Source: Sulfurospirillum diekertiae
GTDB taxonomy: Bacteria > Campylobacterota > Campylobacteria > Campylobacterales > Sulfurospirillaceae
Reading direction: 5' to 3'
Length of the DNA: 64,000 bases
Assembly (NCBI RefSeq): GCF_011769985.2
Contig: NZ_CP039734.2
Location: 992,001 to 1,056,000 of the forward strand
Part shown: positions 18,025 to 39,416 of the stretch, piece by piece
Numbering within the stretch: the first letter of the stretch is position 1
Layout: every line of letters starts with the position of its first letter
Position numbers and translations under genes: made by a program
Notes under the pieces: generated by a model
What the model saw: the letters and a program-made list of their open reading frames with translations, nothing else
What the model was told of the DNA's origin: nothing
The model's database searches: none

Positions 18025-18716
18025 TGTTAATCCTTTTTTGAGAAGTTTGATAGATAAAGCTATAGATTTCTGCGCACAAAAGTAAGCAGATAAATATAAC
18101 GCCAACATAGGTGTAGCCGCCAAGTGCGCTAAGGAGCCCACCACCGCCTGCGATCCAGCCTGTTAAGACCATGATCATTCCTAAAAGCCGTAAATTTCCT
18201 AACTTTGAGAGTCGTTTGAGAATGACAAAGTTATAGTACGAAATCACAAAAGGGTACACCATGCTCAAAAGCACCGCTTCGCGCGAGGCATAGAGCATGT
18301 AACTTAGGGCAAACAAAGAGACAATGATAAACGAATGATGCTCTTTGAGGGTATCACGAAGCAGATACGCTGCGCCCATTCCCACTAAATGAAATACCAA
18401 AATGATGTGCCATGTTTGGGCTCTCCAGATAGACATGTCAGGACTGCGTGAAAGCGTTTCAAAAAGATTAGCATCTAAAAATGCCCAAATCGCCATCGAT
18501 AAAACCGCATAAACACTCAAACTCTGCGACTCAATCTCGACCCTATGCTCTGGCAAACGGTGAATAAAAAAGCTACATGTAAAGGCAACCAAAGAGAGTG
18601 CAATGGCGAGATTGCCTCGTAAAAGTGGTGCATAAGTAAAAAGTGCTGTCGAAATGGCATAGGTAACACCAAGGGCGATGGCGATTTCCGTATAGCGACC
18701 TTTGGTAAATTTAATA

Positions 18717-19630
18717 GACATCTTGCAAAACTCAAATAAAAGGCACTAAAAATGCTTGGCAAGAGGCATGAAAAAATATGAACAAATGCAAAAGCATAAA
18801 CCCAAAGATTTTAAGCGCCATATTGGCGTTAATGAAGAGACATTTAACGCAATGATAGAGGTGTTTAGGCAATACGATGAGAATCGTAAAAAAGGATTAG
18901 GTGTAGGAGGGAGGAGATCTCTTTCACCAGAAAATAAAGTACTTTTGATGCTTGGCTATTATCGTGAGTATCGCACCCTTGAACATATTGGATTTGATTA
19001 TGGTGTGAGTGAATCAACGGCTTCAAGGATTGTATGTGAAGTAGAAGAAGTGTTGATTAAGTCTGGTAGATTTTCATTGCCAAGCAAGAGAGAACTCTAT
19101 AAAAGTGATGTTGCCCTCTCTTTTGTTGTCATTGATGCGACAGAAACGCCTTGTCAAAGACCCAAAAAAAGCAAAGAGAGTACTACTCAGGTAAGCAAAA
19201 GCGTCATACCCTTAAAGGACAGATTGTGATTGATAAAGAGGAGAGGATTATGTGTGTGCATACCGCTAAAGGTACGACACATGATTTTAGACTGTTTCAA
19301 GAATCTAATCTCCCCTTGATGCCCAAGACCTGTGTTTATGTTGATTTGGGATATCTGGGTATTGCCAAAGAACATAGCCATTGTCAAATTCCCCATAAAG
19401 CCTCCAAACTTCATCCTTTGAGTGAGGAGCAAAAAGAGGAAAACAGACAAAAAGCAAGTGCTAGAATATGTGTTGAACATGTGAATGCTAAAATCAAAAC
19501 ATTTCAGATACTCACCCAAAAATACAGAAACAGAAGAAAACGATTCAATCTACGCTTTAATTTGATATGTGGATTAATCAACTTTGACCGTGGTTTTGCT
19601 GTGGAATACAAATGAGTTTTGCAAGATGTC
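18717..19630 (+). mobile_element. IS5-family-like insertion sequence, 914 bp
   Basis: Perfect 18 bp terminal inverted repeats: GACATCTTGCAAAACTCA at 18717-18734 and its complement at 19613-19630. They are flanked by direct repeats TAATA (18712-18716 and 19631-19635), a 5 bp target duplication that could also be read as TA only. One transposase is encoded in two overlapping frames. The clean ends and intact repeats indicate a recent insertion. Confidence 0.9.
18768..19615 (+). CDS. IS5-type DDE transposase, two frames joined by a probable -1 frameshift
   Basis: The first frame (to 19229) encodes an N-terminal helix-turn-helix-like part and the first catalytic Asp (VVIDATETP). The second frame (from about 19151 to 19615) carries the second Asp (VYVDLGYLG) and the Glu (VEHVNAKIK). 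The frames are offset by -1 and meet at a run of seven A after CCC (19164-19170), followed by G, a classic slippery site. A -1 shift gives the usual IS5 sequence QRPKK-QREYYSGKQKRHTLK. A TTG at 18756 is an alternative start. Intact catalytic residues suggest a functional element. Confidence 0.85.
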
Positions 19631-19926
19631 TAATAAGTAACGGTGCGCTCATACCAAGGCTAACGCCAAGAGCTCCCAAAACCACAAGGTTTAACGAAGG
19701 GTAAAAAAGTGAACAAAATGCTTGAAGCCCCACAAAAAAGATGATCTTCTTTTGATCGGAATTGAGCCAACCAAACGAGCGGTACACCAGTAAACTTCCC
19801 AGCACACCCCCTAAAGGAAGGGTAAAGAAGGCTTGAATGTTGGAGTGAAACACTTCGATAATTCCCGTTTGCGCGATAAGTAAGTAGTAGCAAAACTCAC
19901 TCGCAACAAAGAGTGTAAAGAGGACA

Positions 19927-23190: not shown

Positions 23191-23267
23191 CAATAGAATT
23201 TCCTTACGAGTTATAATTTAATGACAATTTTAGATGAATAAGATGAATTGAGTATGAATTTATATAA

Positions 23268-23285
23268 GACTTCTTGCAGAACTCT
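23268..23285. repeat. Relic inverted-repeat end of an IS related to the 914 bp element
   Basis: GACTTCTTGCAGAACTCT matches the terminal repeat of the IS at 18717 in 15 of 18 positions. No transposase or second end is nearby. It abuts the dispersed repeat at 23285, suggesting that an old insertion decayed here. Confidence 0.4.
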
Positions 23286-23369
23286 TGACACGTTTTAAAA
23301 GTAAAGCTTTAAAAACTACGTTAACACTGTGTTTTCTTCGGCAGAAAGCCCTTGCACCTTTGGTGCTTA
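23285..23369 (+). repeat. Dispersed intergenic repeat, copy 1
   Basis: About 85 bp, closely similar (roughly three quarters identical, ungapped over long blocks) to the reverse complement of 37897-37983. It contains a hairpin around GTTTTAAA / TTTAAAAAC, a TTTTCTTCGGCAGAAA motif and a GCACC TTT GGTGC hairpin. It lies between the permease gene and the exonuclease gene and is followed by a near-copy of the TTTACATGTAAA palindrome. Confidence 0.75.
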
Positions 23370-23456
23370 GACTTTTTGCAAAAAGTCTCTTACATGTAAA
23401 AGAGTTAAAAGCTAGTTTGACGTACAATGAAACCCATATAACGATGAAGGTGCGCC

Positions 23457-25067: not shown

Positions 25068-25805
25068 TTAAATTTTTAACTTTTTTCCCAACTCTTCCTT
25101 TACATGTAAAAGCAACGTCTCAAAATCTTCAAAATACCCAAGTGAGCGTTTACGCAGTTCTGCTTCATCATTTTTTGCGTATGTATCGAAGATCGTTATA
25201 ACTTCGATGCCTGCATTATGTGCTGCTTCAACTCCTACCAAAGAGTCCTCAACAACTAAGCACTCATGAGGTTCTGCTTTAAGTTCTTGCATGATGACGT
25301 AGTGCACTTCAGGGTGGGGTTTTATTTTACGCACGACTTCTCGCCCTAAGATCAGGGAAAATGTTTTTTCAAAATCTACTTTTTGTCTCATGGCATTATT
25401 TTCATGAATGTAGATATTTAGATTATTTTGACTGGTGGTGCTGGCGATGACGAGCTGATAGCCTTGCTCCTTAAGGTAGTGCAATAGCGTATGTGCATTT
25501 GGTTTGAAGTCGATGACATTTTTGAGATAGTGCTGAGCAATGGCATAGCGCATGGCGCGGATCTCTTCTTTGGACAAGGTGGCATTGTAAGTTTGTGCTA
25601 AAAAGTTGCAGTATGCTAGGTACGCATCTTGGGTATGGCTAAACGTGCGTAAAAGTTCATCGCGTCGTTGTTGGATGTTTTCTTCAGGTAAAGTCTCTCC
25701 GCCAAGACGCGCTATAAGCTCTTTATCGACAGCGTTCCAGATGCCAACCGAATCAATGAGCGTGCCATCCATATCGAAGATGATGACTTTTTTTTGATGA
25801 AACAT
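25068..25805 (-). CDS. HAD-superfamily phosphatase (beta-phosphoglucomutase-like)
   Basis: About 245 residues with HAD motif I FDMDGTLIDS, motif II ASTTS, a Lys in RKIKPHPE and motif IV VVEDSLVGVEAA. The helical cap of the PGM-like subfamily lies between motifs I and II. Probably a sugar-phosphate or nucleotide phosphatase. ATG 25805 is chosen because AAGG lies seven bases upstream and the HAD motif normally begins within ten residues of the start; an in-frame start at 25856 is less likely. A TTTACATGTAAA copy near the 3' end encodes LHVK. Confidence 0.87.
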   Translation of the reverse strand: MFHQKKVIIFDMDGTLIDSVGIWNAVDKELIARLGGETLPEENIQQRRDELLRTFSHTQDAYLAYCNFLAQTYNATLSKEEIRAMRYAIAQHYLKNVIDFKPNAHTLLHYLKEQGYQLVIASTTSQNNLNIYIHENNAMRQKVDFEKTFSLILGREVVRKIKPHPEVHYVIMQELKAEPHECLVVEDSLVGVEAAHNAGIEVITIFDTYAKNDEAELRKRSLGYFEDFETLLLHVKEELGKKLKI

Positions 25806-30287: not shown

Positions 30288-30330
30288 TTTAAAGCCCCAA
30301 TTTTAGGTATTGAGGCTTTACATGTAAAGA

Positions 30331-35515: not shown

Positions 35516-36511
35516 TTATTCGATGTCACAATACTCTAAAGTTGGGAGGTCTGGCTTTTGCAAATTGTGGTTATTGGCAATAAAAAGATTTTTGAGGTTT
35601 GTCAGCTTTTGAATGGATTCTGGAAGGCTTTCTAGGAGGTTTTCTTCGACATCTAATTCATAAAGGTGCAATAGATTTCCAATGCATTCAGGGAGGTTTT
35701 TGAGACGGTTAGCACTCAAATCCAAAGAGGTGAGTTTGGAGAGTTTGCACAGTGTGTTTGGTACACTCTCTAAGAGGTTGTTTGCCAAAGAGAGAATTTG
35801 TAAATCTTCTAATTTTGAAATATCAAAGTCAATGGAGGTGAGATGGTTGGAGGCAAGGTTGAGTTTGACCAGCATATCGTGCGCCTCTAATGAAGGAAGA
35901 TTTTGCAAAAGATTGCCTTCTAAAATAAGGGTTTCAAGCTCTTTGATTTCACCAAGAGATTTAGGCAATGTGGTGAGTTTATTAAATGAAAGATCGAGAT
36001 AATAGAGCGATTGCATCGAGCCAAAGACTTCGGGGAGAGACTCAAAATAATTGGTATCCAAGCTTACATGTAAAAGTTTTTTGAGGTTTTTAAAAGCAGC
36101 ATCTAAATGGCTTAAACGGTTGACAGCAAGAGTGAGCCTCGTAAGCTTGGAGAGCGCATAAAAACTTTGTGGCAGTGTCGTCAGTTGATTTCCATTGAGG
36201 TTTAAAATGACTAAAGAGCTTAGTTCTCCAAAGTTTTCGGGGAGACTTTGTAAAAGGTTGTTTTCGCACTGCAAATTACGAAGATTTTTAAGGGTGCAAA
36301 TGCTTTGTGGAAGCTCTGTAAGCCTATTGCCTGAAATTTTAAGTATGCTAAGATTTTGAAGGGCATAAATGCTTTCAGGTAGACTTTTGAGCTTTTTCCG
36401 ACTGAGATCAAGTGTAGTGATGCTTTCAAGTTTTGAGAGTTCACGAGGCAAGGTGTGTTCCAATCCTTGGGATTTTATCCAATGTGCAAAATCGCGAATA
36501 CTCTCACTCAT
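35516..36511 (-). CDS. Leucine-rich-repeat protein linked to nif genes
   Basis: 331 residues made of about 12 repeats of 22-23 residues with the pattern LxxLxLxxNxLxxLP (for example LVILNLNGNQLTTLPQSF and LYYLDLSFNKLTTLPKSL). No signal peptide or catalytic domain. ATG 36511 is chosen because AAGGAG lies just upstream; it overlaps the end of the small cysteine-rich gene by 8 bases. It is transcribed with nifV and nifB, so a protein-protein interaction role in nitrogenase assembly or regulation is likely, but inferred. Confidence 0.85.
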   Translation of the reverse strand: MSESIRDFAHWIKSQGLEHTLPRELSKLESITTLDLSRKKLKSLPESIYALQNLSILKISGNRLTELPQSICTLKNLRNLQCENNLLQSLPENFGELSSLVILNLNGNQLTTLPQSFYALSKLTRLTLAVNRLSHLDAAFKNLKKLLHVSLDTNYFESLPEVFGSMQSLYYLDLSFNKLTTLPKSLGEIKELETLILEGNLLQNLPSLEAHDMLVKLNLASNHLTSIDFDISKLEDLQILSLANNLLESVPNTLCKLSKLTSLDLSANRLKNLPECIGNLLHLYELDVEENLLESLPESIQKLTNLKNLFIANNHNLQKPDLPTLEYCDIE

Positions 36512-36761
36512 CACTCTCTCCTTGCTCAAATCTACTATTTTTTTGATCAATTAAAAAGGCAATCTCTTCGTAATCAATTTCACCGAATTCTACCATATTA
36601 AAGAGTGCCATTAAAGGTCTACGACAACAGGTTTGATTACACCCAGTGACAAGTTTTTTGGCTTTTTTATAGGGGAGGGTAGTAGATTTAAAAATATCAA
36701 TAGCTTCCTGAATGGTTTTTTGACCGCATTCACAGATGATTTTAGAGGCATATTCTTCCAT
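36504..36761 (-). CDS. BFD-like [2Fe-2S] small protein in nif operon
   Basis: 85 residues. Cys10 and Cys12 (CEC), then Cys41 and Cys45 (GCNQTC) after about 28 residues, the spacing of bacterioferritin-associated-ferredoxin / NifU middle-domain [2Fe-2S] sites. Another Cys (46) follows. It lies four bases downstream of nifV and overlaps the LRR gene. It probably transfers electrons or iron-sulfur units for nitrogenase maturation; this is inferred. Confidence 0.72.
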   Translation of the reverse strand: MEEYASKIICECGQKTIQEAIDIFKSTTLPYKKAKKLVTGCNQTCCRRPLMALFNMVEFGEIDYEEIAFLIDQKNSRFEQGESDE

Positions 36762-36765
36762 TAAT

Positions 36766-37881
36766 TTATCCAGCTTTTGAAGCGATATAGAGCGCTCTTA
36801 GCTCCTTTTTGTTGAGAACTTTTTTACGATTGGTGACCATTTCACGCACTTGTGGAAGCATTTTATTGATGACTTCATTTTCGGGTTCATACCCCATCGC
36901 ACGAAGATGAAAGAGAAGTGTTGAACTGCCTGAATGTTTTCCAATAGGATAACTTCGTGTCATTCCGACACTTTGAGGTGAAAAGGCTTCATAAGCTTTA
37001 TCGTGCTTAATCATGCCATTGACATGAATGCCCGATTCATGTGAAAAGATATTTTTACCGACAATCGGCATCGTAGCAGAGATACTTTGGTTGGACGCTT
37101 TTTCAACCAACTGCACGACATGTTTTAGTGCATCGGGGTTAATCACACGCTCTTCGCCAAAAAGATGAGCCAGGCTCATTAGAACCTGCTCAAAGCTCGC
37201 ATTTCCAGCGCGTTCACCGAGTCCAATGACGGTTGTATTGACACTGAGCGCTCCTGCTTCGAGTCCACTGATGGCATTAGCGGTTGCCATACCAAAGTCA
37301 TTGTGCGTGTGCATTTCTATCTCTAAAAGATTGAGGCCTGTGAGGTAGGAAATATGCTCGTAAATTTGATGAGGACGCATAATGCCCACCGTGTCACAGT
37401 AACGGAAACGATTGGCTCCTAGACTGGCTCCTAACTCCATGACCTCTTTCAAAAAGCCTCTATCTGCTCTAGAGCTATCTTCGCCCCCAATGCAGGCAAA
37501 AATACCCTCAGATTTGCTTACATGTAAAACCTCTTCAAGGTTTTTTAAAAGGCGTGCTTTATCGCCTCCAAATTTTGCTTCAATGAGAATGTCTGATACA
37601 GGAATAGAGAGATCAACTGCTTTAAGTCCACAAGAGAGTGATGCTTCTAAATCACTCATCGTGGCACGATTCCAACTCATAATGCGAAGCGGAAGATCAA
37701 GGGCAAGGATTTCTTTGATATCCGCTTGCTCTTTTGCACCCATCGCTGGAATACCCACTTCAAGCTCATCGGCACCTGCAAGGTAAAGTGCCGATGCGAT
37801 GGCGATTTTTTCATCGGTGTTAAAGGCAACGTAAGGTGCTTGTTCACCATCTCTAAGTGTGGTATCGTTGATAATCATCAT
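36766..37881 (-). CDS. nifV: Homocitrate synthase
   Basis: 371 residues from ATG 37881, which is preferred to 37893 because the codons between hold the AAGGA site. NDTTLRDGEQAPYVAF is the catalytic start of the isopropylmalate/homocitrate synthase family; EMHTHNDFGMATANA carries the metal-binding His pair, and GERAGNASFEQV and SHESGIHVNGM follow. NifV joins acetyl-CoA and 2-oxoglutarate to homocitrate, the organic ligand of FeMo-co. Its nif neighbours decide against LeuA. Confidence 0.92.
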   Translation of the reverse strand: MMIINDTTLRDGEQAPYVAFNTDEKIAIASALYLAGADELEVGIPAMGAKEQADIKEILALDLPLRIMSWNRATMSDLEASLSCGLKAVDLSIPVSDILIEAKFGGDKARLLKNLEEVLHVSKSEGIFACIGGEDSSRADRGFLKEVMELGASLGANRFRYCDTVGIMRPHQIYEHISYLTGLNLLEIEMHTHNDFGMATANAISGLEAGALSVNTTVIGLGERAGNASFEQVLMSLAHLFGEERVINPDALKHVVQLVEKASNQSISATMPIVGKNIFSHESGIHVNGMIKHDKAYEAFSPQSVGMTRSYPIGKHSGSSTLLFHLRAMGYEPENEVINKMLPQVREMVTNRKKVLNKKELRALYIASKAG

Positions 37882-37896
37882 TTTTTCCTTCATTCA

Positions 37897-37983
37897 TAAG
37901 CACCAAGGGTGCGTGGGCTTTCTGCCGAAGAAAACTAAGCGTTAGCGTAGCTTTTAGAGCTTTGCCCTAAAAGCGTGTCACTT
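37897..37983 (-). repeat. Dispersed intergenic repeat, copy 2, between nifB and nifV
   Basis: On the minus strand it matches copy 1 at 23285-23369. The first hairpin is GCTTTTAG / CTAAAAGC, in which C-G and G-C pairs replace T-A and A-T pairs of copy 1, compensatory changes. A second hairpin is GCACC CTT GGTGC. It fills almost the whole 104 bp gap between nifB and nifV and could act as an attenuator or mRNA processing site. Confidence 0.75.
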
Positions 37984-37985
37984 AA

Positions 37986-39416
37986 TTAAGAAGCAGCAAA
38001 AAAGTGCTTACGCACACCTTTTAGAACAGAAAGCTCAATAGGCTCATCCGCAAAACTCTCATCACATGTGAGGTGAATACTCTCTAACTCTTTTTGTGGA
38101 CATTCGCCAATTTTTTGGGTTAAGAGAAGATGACAATCTGAGAGGGCATTTTTGATCTCTTCGATAGGGTAGGTTCCATTGCAGTTCTCTTTTCCCATAC
38201 AGTAAGAATTTTCAACTTTACGGTGCATAATAAATTTAATCGCTTTATCGCCTGCTTCGTAGATCAAAAACTCTTTCGCACTCCCAAAGTGGTCGTTAAT
38301 AAGTCCATTTCCACGCGTGGTAACGGCTACAAGCATTGTATCGCCAGTAGAGCTAAGCTCATCTTTATTTGTCGCGTCTTCTTGAGTAATTTTACCATTG
38401 GCAGCTCGGAGTGCTCTTCTCCATGTTTCGATATTCTCATGGGTTTTCATACGTTGGTTAAGGTTGTAATGGTGAGAAAGCTCTGCAAAACTTTTGTCAG
38501 CAAAACTCTCTTTGAAAAATTCATCACTACGATCTTCACCGAGTAAACCAACCGCGTCAGCTCTGCATTGGCGACAATGGCGCATCAATTTGACATTGAT
38601 ATCACAGGCTTCTTGTGCTTTCATAAGTTGTTTATGCGTAGCACTTGGAACGCCATCGAGTCCAAATTTAGTACCGTATTCTGGTTTTGAGATGATTGGC
38701 ATAACGTTTTGAATAAAAACACCCAACTCTTTGACTTTTTTAGCAACGAGAGGAAGATGCTCATCGTTGATGCCTGGAATTAAGACTGAGTTCACTTTGA
38801 CAAGAATGCCTCGCTCAACGAGCATTTGAATACCAAGAAGCTGTTTTTCAAGCAATAATTTTGCACCTTCTACACCACGGTGTTTTTTATGTTCGTAAAA
38901 AACCCATGGGTAGATTTTAGAACCAATTTCACCGCTCTCATCAACAGAGTTAAGCGTTACGGTAACATGCTCAATGTTGTATTTAGCAATCTCATCAATA
39001 TGTTTGTGAATCATCAAACCATTCGTTGAAAGACAGAGTTTGATATCAGGCGCATATTTCTTAAGCAGGGCAAATGTCTCGAACGTTTGCTTAGGATTGG
39101 CAAGTCCATCGCCGGGTCCTGCAATGCCCACGACGCTGAGTTGTTGAATAAGTCCGCCTACATGTAAGACTTTTTTCACCGCCTCTTCGGGGCTTAGTTT
39201 ATAGCTCGTAACACCGGGACGACTTTCATTTGAACAGTCGTACTTACGGTTACAGTAGTTGCATTGGATATTACATGCAGGAGCTACTGCAACATGGATA
39301 CGCGCATAATGTTGGTGGGCATCTTGGCTATAACAAGGGTGGTTGTTAATCTTTTGCATGATGCTAGCATGAAGTTCATTTTGTGTGTTGGTGGATGATG
39401 TGCAAGAACAACTCAT
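37986..39416 (-). CDS. nifB: FeMo-cofactor biosynthesis radical SAM protein NifB
   Basis: 476 residues. Radical SAM motif CNIQCNYC with Cys48, Cys52 and Cys55, then VGIAGPGDGLANP. The C-terminal 110 residues are a NifX-like domain (VAVTTRGNGLINDHFG). NifB fuses two 4Fe-4S clusters into the NifB-co precursor of FeMo-co, so this is a key marker of real nitrogen fixation. The N terminus (MSCSCTSST) has extra cysteines. A sigma-54-like promoter lies about 35-50 bases upstream. Confidence 0.96.
   Translation of the reverse strand: MSCSCTSSTNTQNELHASIMQKINNHPCYSQDAHQHYARIHVAVAPACNIQCNYCNRKYDCSNESRPGVTSYKLSPEEAVKKVLHVGGLIQQLSVVGIAGPGDGLANPKQTFETFALLKKYAPDIKLCLSTNGLMIHKHIDEIAKYNIEHVTVTLNSVDESGEIGSKIYPWVFYEHKKHRGVEGAKLLLEKQLLGIQMLVERGILVKVNSVLIPGINDEHLPLVAKKVKELGVFIQNVMPIISKPEYGTKFGLDGVPSATHKQLMKAQEACDINVKLMRHCRQCRADAVGLLGEDRSDEFFKESFADKSFAELSHHYNLNQRMKTHENIETWRRALRAANGKITQEDATNKDELSSTGDTMLVAVTTRGNGLINDHFGSAKEFLIYEAGDKAIKFIMHRKVENSYCMGKENCNGTYPIEEIKNALSDCHLLLTQKIGECPQKELESIHLTCDESFADEPIELSVLKGVRKHFFAAS

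Follow-up and report, generated by a model that had tools for sequence, protein, structure and literature searches.

The repeat pair and its surroundings

The window, which is the whole stretch of DNA that was analysed, comprises 64,000 nucleotides of Sulfurospirillum diekertiae (contig NZ_CP039734.2, positions 992,001 to 1,056,000). It contains two copies of a folded repeat, the second of which lies between nifB and nifV, and an insertion sequence (IS) that we take to belong to the IS5 family, ISL2-type group (Table 1). The original prediction, made from the letters of the window, described the two copies as an inverted pair of structured intergenic repeats and offered two readings: a repeated RNA element, or a mobile element that cannot move on its own. 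Each reading is supported, at a different layer: the 86-nt core of each copy is an RNA structure under selection, and the 122-bp unit around the core of copy 1 is the form of a miniature inverted-repeat transposable element (MITE).

Table 1. Positions of the repeat copies, their parts and the associated genes in the window
Feature	Position	Strand	Remarks
IS5-type insertion sequence	18716..19631	+	ends AGACATCTTGCAAAACTCA / TGAGTTTTGCAAGATGTCT; AAT/AAT target duplication
IS transposase, two overlapping frames	18756..19615	+	18756-19229 HTH_Tnp_4; 19151-19615 DDE_Tnp_4 (Pfam)
Copy 1, long (MITE) form, 122 bp	23267..23388	.	left end AGACTTCTTGCAGAA (23267-23281), right end TTTTGCAAAAAGTCT (23374-23388)
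Copy 1, structured core, 86 nt	23286..23371	- (selected RNA strand)	alignment member; strand from family G.U/A.C asymmetry
Copy 1, hairpin 1	23292..23316	-	helix 1, alignment columns 7-32
Copy 1, mini-hairpin G-Y-[GUUA]-R-C (RNA strand)	23320..23327	-	covarying Y/R pair, 97.8% of cells paired
Copy 1, hairpin 2	23329..23351	-	helix 3; conserved internal loop on RNA strand, from strand comparison
Copy 1, hairpin 3 (GCACC/GGTGC)	23354..23366	-	helix 4; 97.4% of cells paired, both sides changing at all five pairs
nifV	36766-37893	-	name from Pfam
Copy 2, structured core, 86 nt	37895..37980	+ (selected RNA strand)	without IS ends; between nifB and nifV
Copy 2, hairpin 3	37900-37912	+	
Copy 2, hairpin 2	37915-37937	+	
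Copy 2, mini-hairpin	37939-37946	+	
Copy 2, hairpin 1	37950-37974	+	
nifB	37986-39416	-	name from Pfam

Structure and covariation of the core

The plus strand of copy 1 and the minus strand of copy 2 align over 86 nt without a gap, as had been claimed, and 70 of the 86 positions are identical. The two paired changes reported for the first hairpin were recovered (T-A for C-G at core positions 8/30 and A-T for G-C at 14/24), and a third compensatory pair, T-A for C-G at 36/41, lies inside the mini-hairpin of the linker. The GCACC/GGTGC hairpin is intact in both copies, again as predicted. The two hairpins named at that time are real, but the full unit consists of three main hairpins and the mini-hairpin, arranged on the strand drawn in the original prediction as hairpin 1, linker with mini-hairpin, hairpin 2 and hairpin 3. 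The label "inverted pair" is misleading, as each copy inserted on its own; both belong to a dispersed family and happen to lie in opposite orientations.

The base pairs of this unit covary throughout the family. In a free MAFFT alignment of 24 copies from the host genome, 45 cells carried changes on both sides of a pair, compared with 19.7 in shuffles. Among 94 diverse copies, 590 double-change cells were counted against 183.5 in shuffles and 89.6% of the cells were paired against 67.6%, in an alignment that was fitted to the model and whose counts therefore lean toward structure; every slid control was far lower. All four Watson-Crick pairs were seen at positions of hairpin 1. The earlier view that the paired changes reflect selection on structure thus holds, and selection maintains the 86-nt core as a structured RNA. 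In two loci (L121 and L177), an extra hairpin of about 20 nt, CCCTCAAGGGG, is placed exactly in the loop of hairpin 1 and leaves the stem undisturbed.

The strand drawn in the original prediction is not the selected one. Where pairs alternate between A-U and G-C, the intermediate state on that strand is A.C and not G.U, and the complement strand shows 165 G.U against 17 A.C when two positions of hairpin 2 are left out. Copy by copy, 75 of the 94 favour the complement, one favours the strand drawn earlier and 18 tie. RNAalifold folded the complement at -31.4 kcal/mol and the other strand at -14.4, and on the latter it recovered hairpin 2 alone from the host genome copies because the wrong strand had been used. 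Taken together, these results show that selection acts on the reverse complement of the earlier drawing, which is the minus strand at copy 1 and the plus strand at copy 2. The consensus of the selected strand includes GRGCnYnCYGCYGARGnRaACnnAGcGUuAgCGuAG, followed by hairpin 1 and CGU.

Copy number and distribution

The family is large in the host genome of 2.78 Mb, where blastn placed copy 1 at 25 sites and copy 2 at 26. A genome-wide covariance-model search, a check of the kind proposed originally, used a model built from the 24 host genome copies and returned 29 matches at E < 1e-10 and 57 at E < 1. The absence of other copies had been named as one outcome that would overturn the prediction, and many copies are present. 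No replication-strand bias of the host genome copies was apparent when their positions were judged by eye.

All 24 Sulfurospirillum genomes tested carry the element. Copy numbers ranged from 7 to 71 in the 22 other genomes of the genus first searched, and scattered copies turned up in further families of the order. Of 298 Campylobacterota genomes drawn evenly, 48 have the element, and these represent four families and 11 genera. Sulfurospirillum, Sulfurimonas, Sulfuricurvum, Sulfurovum, Hydrogenimonas and Arcobacter are among the pattern-scan matches listed, as are metagenome-assembled genomes of unassigned Campylobacterales or Helicobacteraceae. The phage search gave no match, the plasmid search gave one (in Sulfurovum mangrovi) and the viral search one viral contig. 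Scans of Rfam 15 at gathering and permissive thresholds produced no relevant match, and no description of the element was found in the open-access literature. The folded RNA element is apparently undescribed.

Position of the core ahead of genes

Gene context was taken from a simple, crude gene finder based on open reading frames, and the loci outside Sulfurospirillum were partly picked by exact pattern. With these limits, among 100 copies outside the genus 43 have a start codon with a Shine-Dalgarno (SD) sequence no more than 80 nt downstream on the selected strand, as against 7 on the other strand (P = 2e-7). The commonest arrangement is that both neighbouring genes are antisense to the strand drawn earlier (60 copies, against 31 with both sense). 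The genes behind these leaders include dnaK and nifU (4 loci each), rplK, hypA and glyQ (2 each), as well as rplL, tpx, nusB, flgE, flgG, secF, miaB, cobA and a homoserine dehydrogenase gene, some of these names being read from sequence. Copies are also found inside operons, such as nusG-rplK and rplJ-rplL.

Across species, cores ahead of one and the same gene share 79% identity, compared with 66.5% for cores preceding different genes (0 of 5000 permutations). Inside G039, and likewise inside G110 and G318, copies resemble one another little more than they resemble the copies of other genomes, G037 being an exception. Because of this likeness by gene and the low likeness within genomes, the majority of copies outside Sulfurospirillum appear ancient, bound to their locus and under structural constraint. 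The genes between neighbouring copies were checked for an autonomous partner, and ordinary genes only were found.

Sulfurimonas-type leaders

Sulfurimonas-type leaders carry, after the core, an AU-rich hairpin that holds the SD sequence in its 3' arm, mostly 6-10 nt before the start codon, which itself lies 48-59 nt from the core. A scan of the fetched loci for this SD hairpin gave matches beside cores and one degenerate match away from any core. The 5' arm of the hairpin (segment B) is complementary not only to the SD segment (C) but also to the linker that directly follows the core (A). Each pairing is specific to its locus: the energies of a leader's own segments beat those of swapped segments for A:B (0 of 5000 permutations, P < 0.0002) and for B:C (P = 0.0004). 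Mutually exclusive helices around the SD sequence are predicted in 19 Sulfurimonas-type leaders, and the predicted folds fall on either side of the choice between A:B and B:C. The core and segments A, B and C have the anatomy of a translational switch, and from these modelled pairings we infer that switching may occur.

Capture by an IS5-type element in Sulfurospirillum

Many Sulfurospirillum copies of the core sit in a longer unit with the ends AGAGTTCTTGCAGAA and TTTTGCAAGAAGTCT. This long form usually measures 136 bp. In 12 of 21 copies the two 3-bp flanks are identical (P = 0.0012), mostly fitting A-N-T, as does the AAT/AAT duplication of the IS in the window. A search with the end of the long unit also retrieved a 916-bp IS with the ends AGACATCTTGCAAAA / TTTTGCAAGATGTCT, which is present in 8 copies in the host genome, one of them the IS in the window, and in 5 in another genome (G008). 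The inverted ends of copy 1 match these IS ends and the 136-bp MITE of the genus, and copy 1 is a somewhat shortened MITE of an IS5-type element. Its flanks are ATA and CTT, so copy 1 itself shows no target duplication. The IS in the window probably supplied the ends of the MITE, and its transposase is the likely agent of the MITE's movement.

The site of copy 1 is empty in 11 congeners. The insertion of copy 2 is present in a genome of the same species and absent at the orthologous nifB-nifV junction in the 18 congeners aligned. In Sulfurospirillum, the core has been captured by an IS5-type MITE, and it is mobile there. Just downstream of nifV lies a minus-strand gene (35516-36550) for a leucine-rich-repeat protein of 344 aa, which is unusual company for nitrogen fixation genes.

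Other rearrangements around the core

Tandem arrays of the core occur with periods of 86 to 126 bp, and abutting inverted pairs also occur. Single cores are flanked by direct repeats of 19-37 bp at five loci (L144, L174, L157, L125 and L109), while mismatched flanks reach at most 12. These repeats sometimes cover the start region of a gene and are possibly long target duplications or remnants of tandem duplication in place. At six further loci (L159, L143, L132, L115, L058 and L160), a second piece of 22 nt, running from the 5' or left end of the element to the apex of hairpin 1, lies within 6 nt on the right of the core, with none on the left. In other Campylobacterota (L138, L147, L148, L164 and L175), a different outer inverted repeat, CAATGCCATTAAG..CTTAATGGCATTG, encloses the core, which suggests that another small transposon captured it in a separate, second event.

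Two observations concern other sequences. The palindrome TTTACATGTAAA occurs at 20 sites in the window, from 2450 to 61649 (for example 25099-25110 and 30317-30328), and shuffles give none. It is also present in intergenic flanks of many relatives, beside the repeats yet independent of them, and is possibly the binding site of a regulator or a terminator-like palindrome. A sub-threshold match to SECIS_3 (33.3 bits, E = 9e-5) on a relative's contig (L055:232-290, minus strand) may represent a selenocysteine insertion element.

Alternative explanations

The rival that survives best, although we regard it as improbable, is that the element is entirely selfish, a MITE like ERIC or Correia repeats with a structure that would serve its own transposition alone. 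This description holds for the long form in Sulfurospirillum with its ends, size, target duplications and empty sites, and the tandem arrays and flanking direct repeats seen elsewhere agree with it. Outside the genus, however, the core lacks these ends and its structure is still kept. A selfish element is also hard to reconcile with copies that are barely more alike within G039, G110 and G318 than between genomes, and with the likeness of copies ahead of the same gene across species. The conserved loops and the G.U strand asymmetry further indicate RNA.

The core could instead be a single-stranded DNA hairpin of the repetitive extragenic palindromic (REP) kind, with a Y1 (RAYT-type) HUH transposase mobilising the GTAG and the palindrome that follows it on the selected strand. 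GUAG does precede hairpin 1 on the selected strand in most copies, copies are dispersed between genes and form tandem arrays and inverted pairs, and a Y1 gene is present in every genome of the genus but one. Nevertheless, Y1 is missing from 5 of 17 further core-bearing genomes, including the closed G231 and G206, as well as from G037 and G052, and it is present in genomes without the core. No core lies within the loci of 13 Y1 genes, and the Y1 gene of the host genome has different palindromic flanks. A bias toward leaders and descent gene by gene are not expected of such elements either, and this explanation is considered quite unlikely. Y1 transposase as the mobiliser of the core was not supported, on the strength of the 5 genomes without Y1 and the 13 genes with no core beside them. 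In the part of a RepRanger survey of REP elements that gives palindrome counts for Sulfurimonas gotlandica, no such element appears (PMC12306157). The Y1-like gene of the host genome (L032:1380-2260; C1 around 315364) is single, encodes 258 aa with a C-terminal helix-turn-helix, is flanked by its own inverted palindromes GGGGTCAGGGCTAAA / TTTAGCCCTGACCCC and lies just upstream of a gyrA-like gene.

We give equally little credence to a multicopy family of genes for trans-acting small RNAs. The element is compact, strongly folded, strand-specific and present in many copies, all of which would suit small RNA genes. The close coupling of start codons downstream in Sulfurimonas-type leaders and the positions inside operons point instead to a role in cis, and a promoter or terminator on the selected strand was not established. 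A mobile intrinsic terminator on the strand drawn earlier, in which GCACC/GGTGC would be followed by T's, is very improbable even though TTTT follows hairpin 3 in many copies, since strand asymmetry and gene position favour the opposite strand, hairpin 3 is short, hairpins 1 and 2 would be left without explanation, and some copies are internal to operons (nusG-rplK and rplJ-rplL, for example).

Proposed role of the element

The best reading, which we favour with rather more confidence than doubt, is that the element is a cis-acting leader RNA that has been captured by a MITE in Sulfurospirillum. The main role of the core in Campylobacterota would then be played in mRNA leaders and between the genes of operons, where, once transcribed, it would lie shortly upstream of the SD sequence of various housekeeping genes and affect their translation. 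In Sulfurimonas-type leaders, segment B would pair either with A just after the core, leaving the SD sequence free, or with C, which holds it. The core may bias this choice by its folding or by binding a protein or ligand, and could in this way act as a sensor. In Sulfurospirillum, the core was captured between IS5-type ends and spread as a MITE of about 136 bp in both orientations. Many Sulfurospirillum copies, including both copies in the window, are therefore insertions that do not necessarily regulate anything.

Several observations weigh against the leader reading. Inside Sulfurospirillum, the leader test gave 19 copies against 10 (P = 0.14), a weak orientation bias, and the selected strand of copy 2 is antisense to both nifB and nifV. 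The crude gene finder and the partial selection of loci by pattern also count here. No coherent regulon was recognized among the genes behind the cores. The switch was not found in the other clades, in which the SD sequence is no more hidden than in controls, and the tandem arrays and the direct repeats beside cores look more like the work of a selfish element than of a regulatory one.

A wider proposal, which is advanced tentatively, is that the core defines a new, phylum-wide class of regulatory leader RNA in free-living Campylobacterota, a translational control element that might respond to a ligand, a protein or temperature and serve many unrelated housekeeping genes in each genome. It would have become transposon cargo in one genus, where insertion might bring new genes under its control. 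A folded RNA with no Rfam entry is present in up to about 70 copies per genome in free-living Campylobacterota, ahead of genes such as dnaK, nifU and rplK. If it does control translation, it would form a global regulatory layer in a phylum whose RNA-based control is poorly charted. Carried by an IS5-type MITE, it is a tangible example of a possible regulatory RNA module spread by transposition.

Comparison with known systems

Like translational riboswitches and RNA thermometers, the core is a conserved, covarying folded domain on the mRNA strand, and in Sulfurimonas-type leaders it precedes predicted alternative helices that would conceal or expose the SD sequence. It differs from them in having no known ligand or temperature response, no coherent regulon and no relevant Rfam match, and in occurring in dozens of copies with tandem arrays. 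With REP elements and their RAYT transposases it shares dispersed intergenic copies and, on the selected strand, a hairpin preceded by GUAG, whereas it lacks a linked Y1 gene and has three further conserved structural parts. ERIC and Correia repeats, as far as general knowledge goes, are likewise short, structured and intergenic, with many copies per genome, structure on the transcribed strand and MITE-like spread. No sequence relation to them was established, and the leader position and cross-family covariation of the present element are much stronger.

The closest likeness of the long form in Sulfurospirillum is to the MITEs of IS5-type insertion sequences. It is short and free of genes, its inverted ends resemble those of a resident IS, and it shows 3-bp A-N-T duplications and empty sites in relatives. 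Unlike such MITEs, it carries a structured RNA that exists independently of it, without those ends, throughout the phylum.
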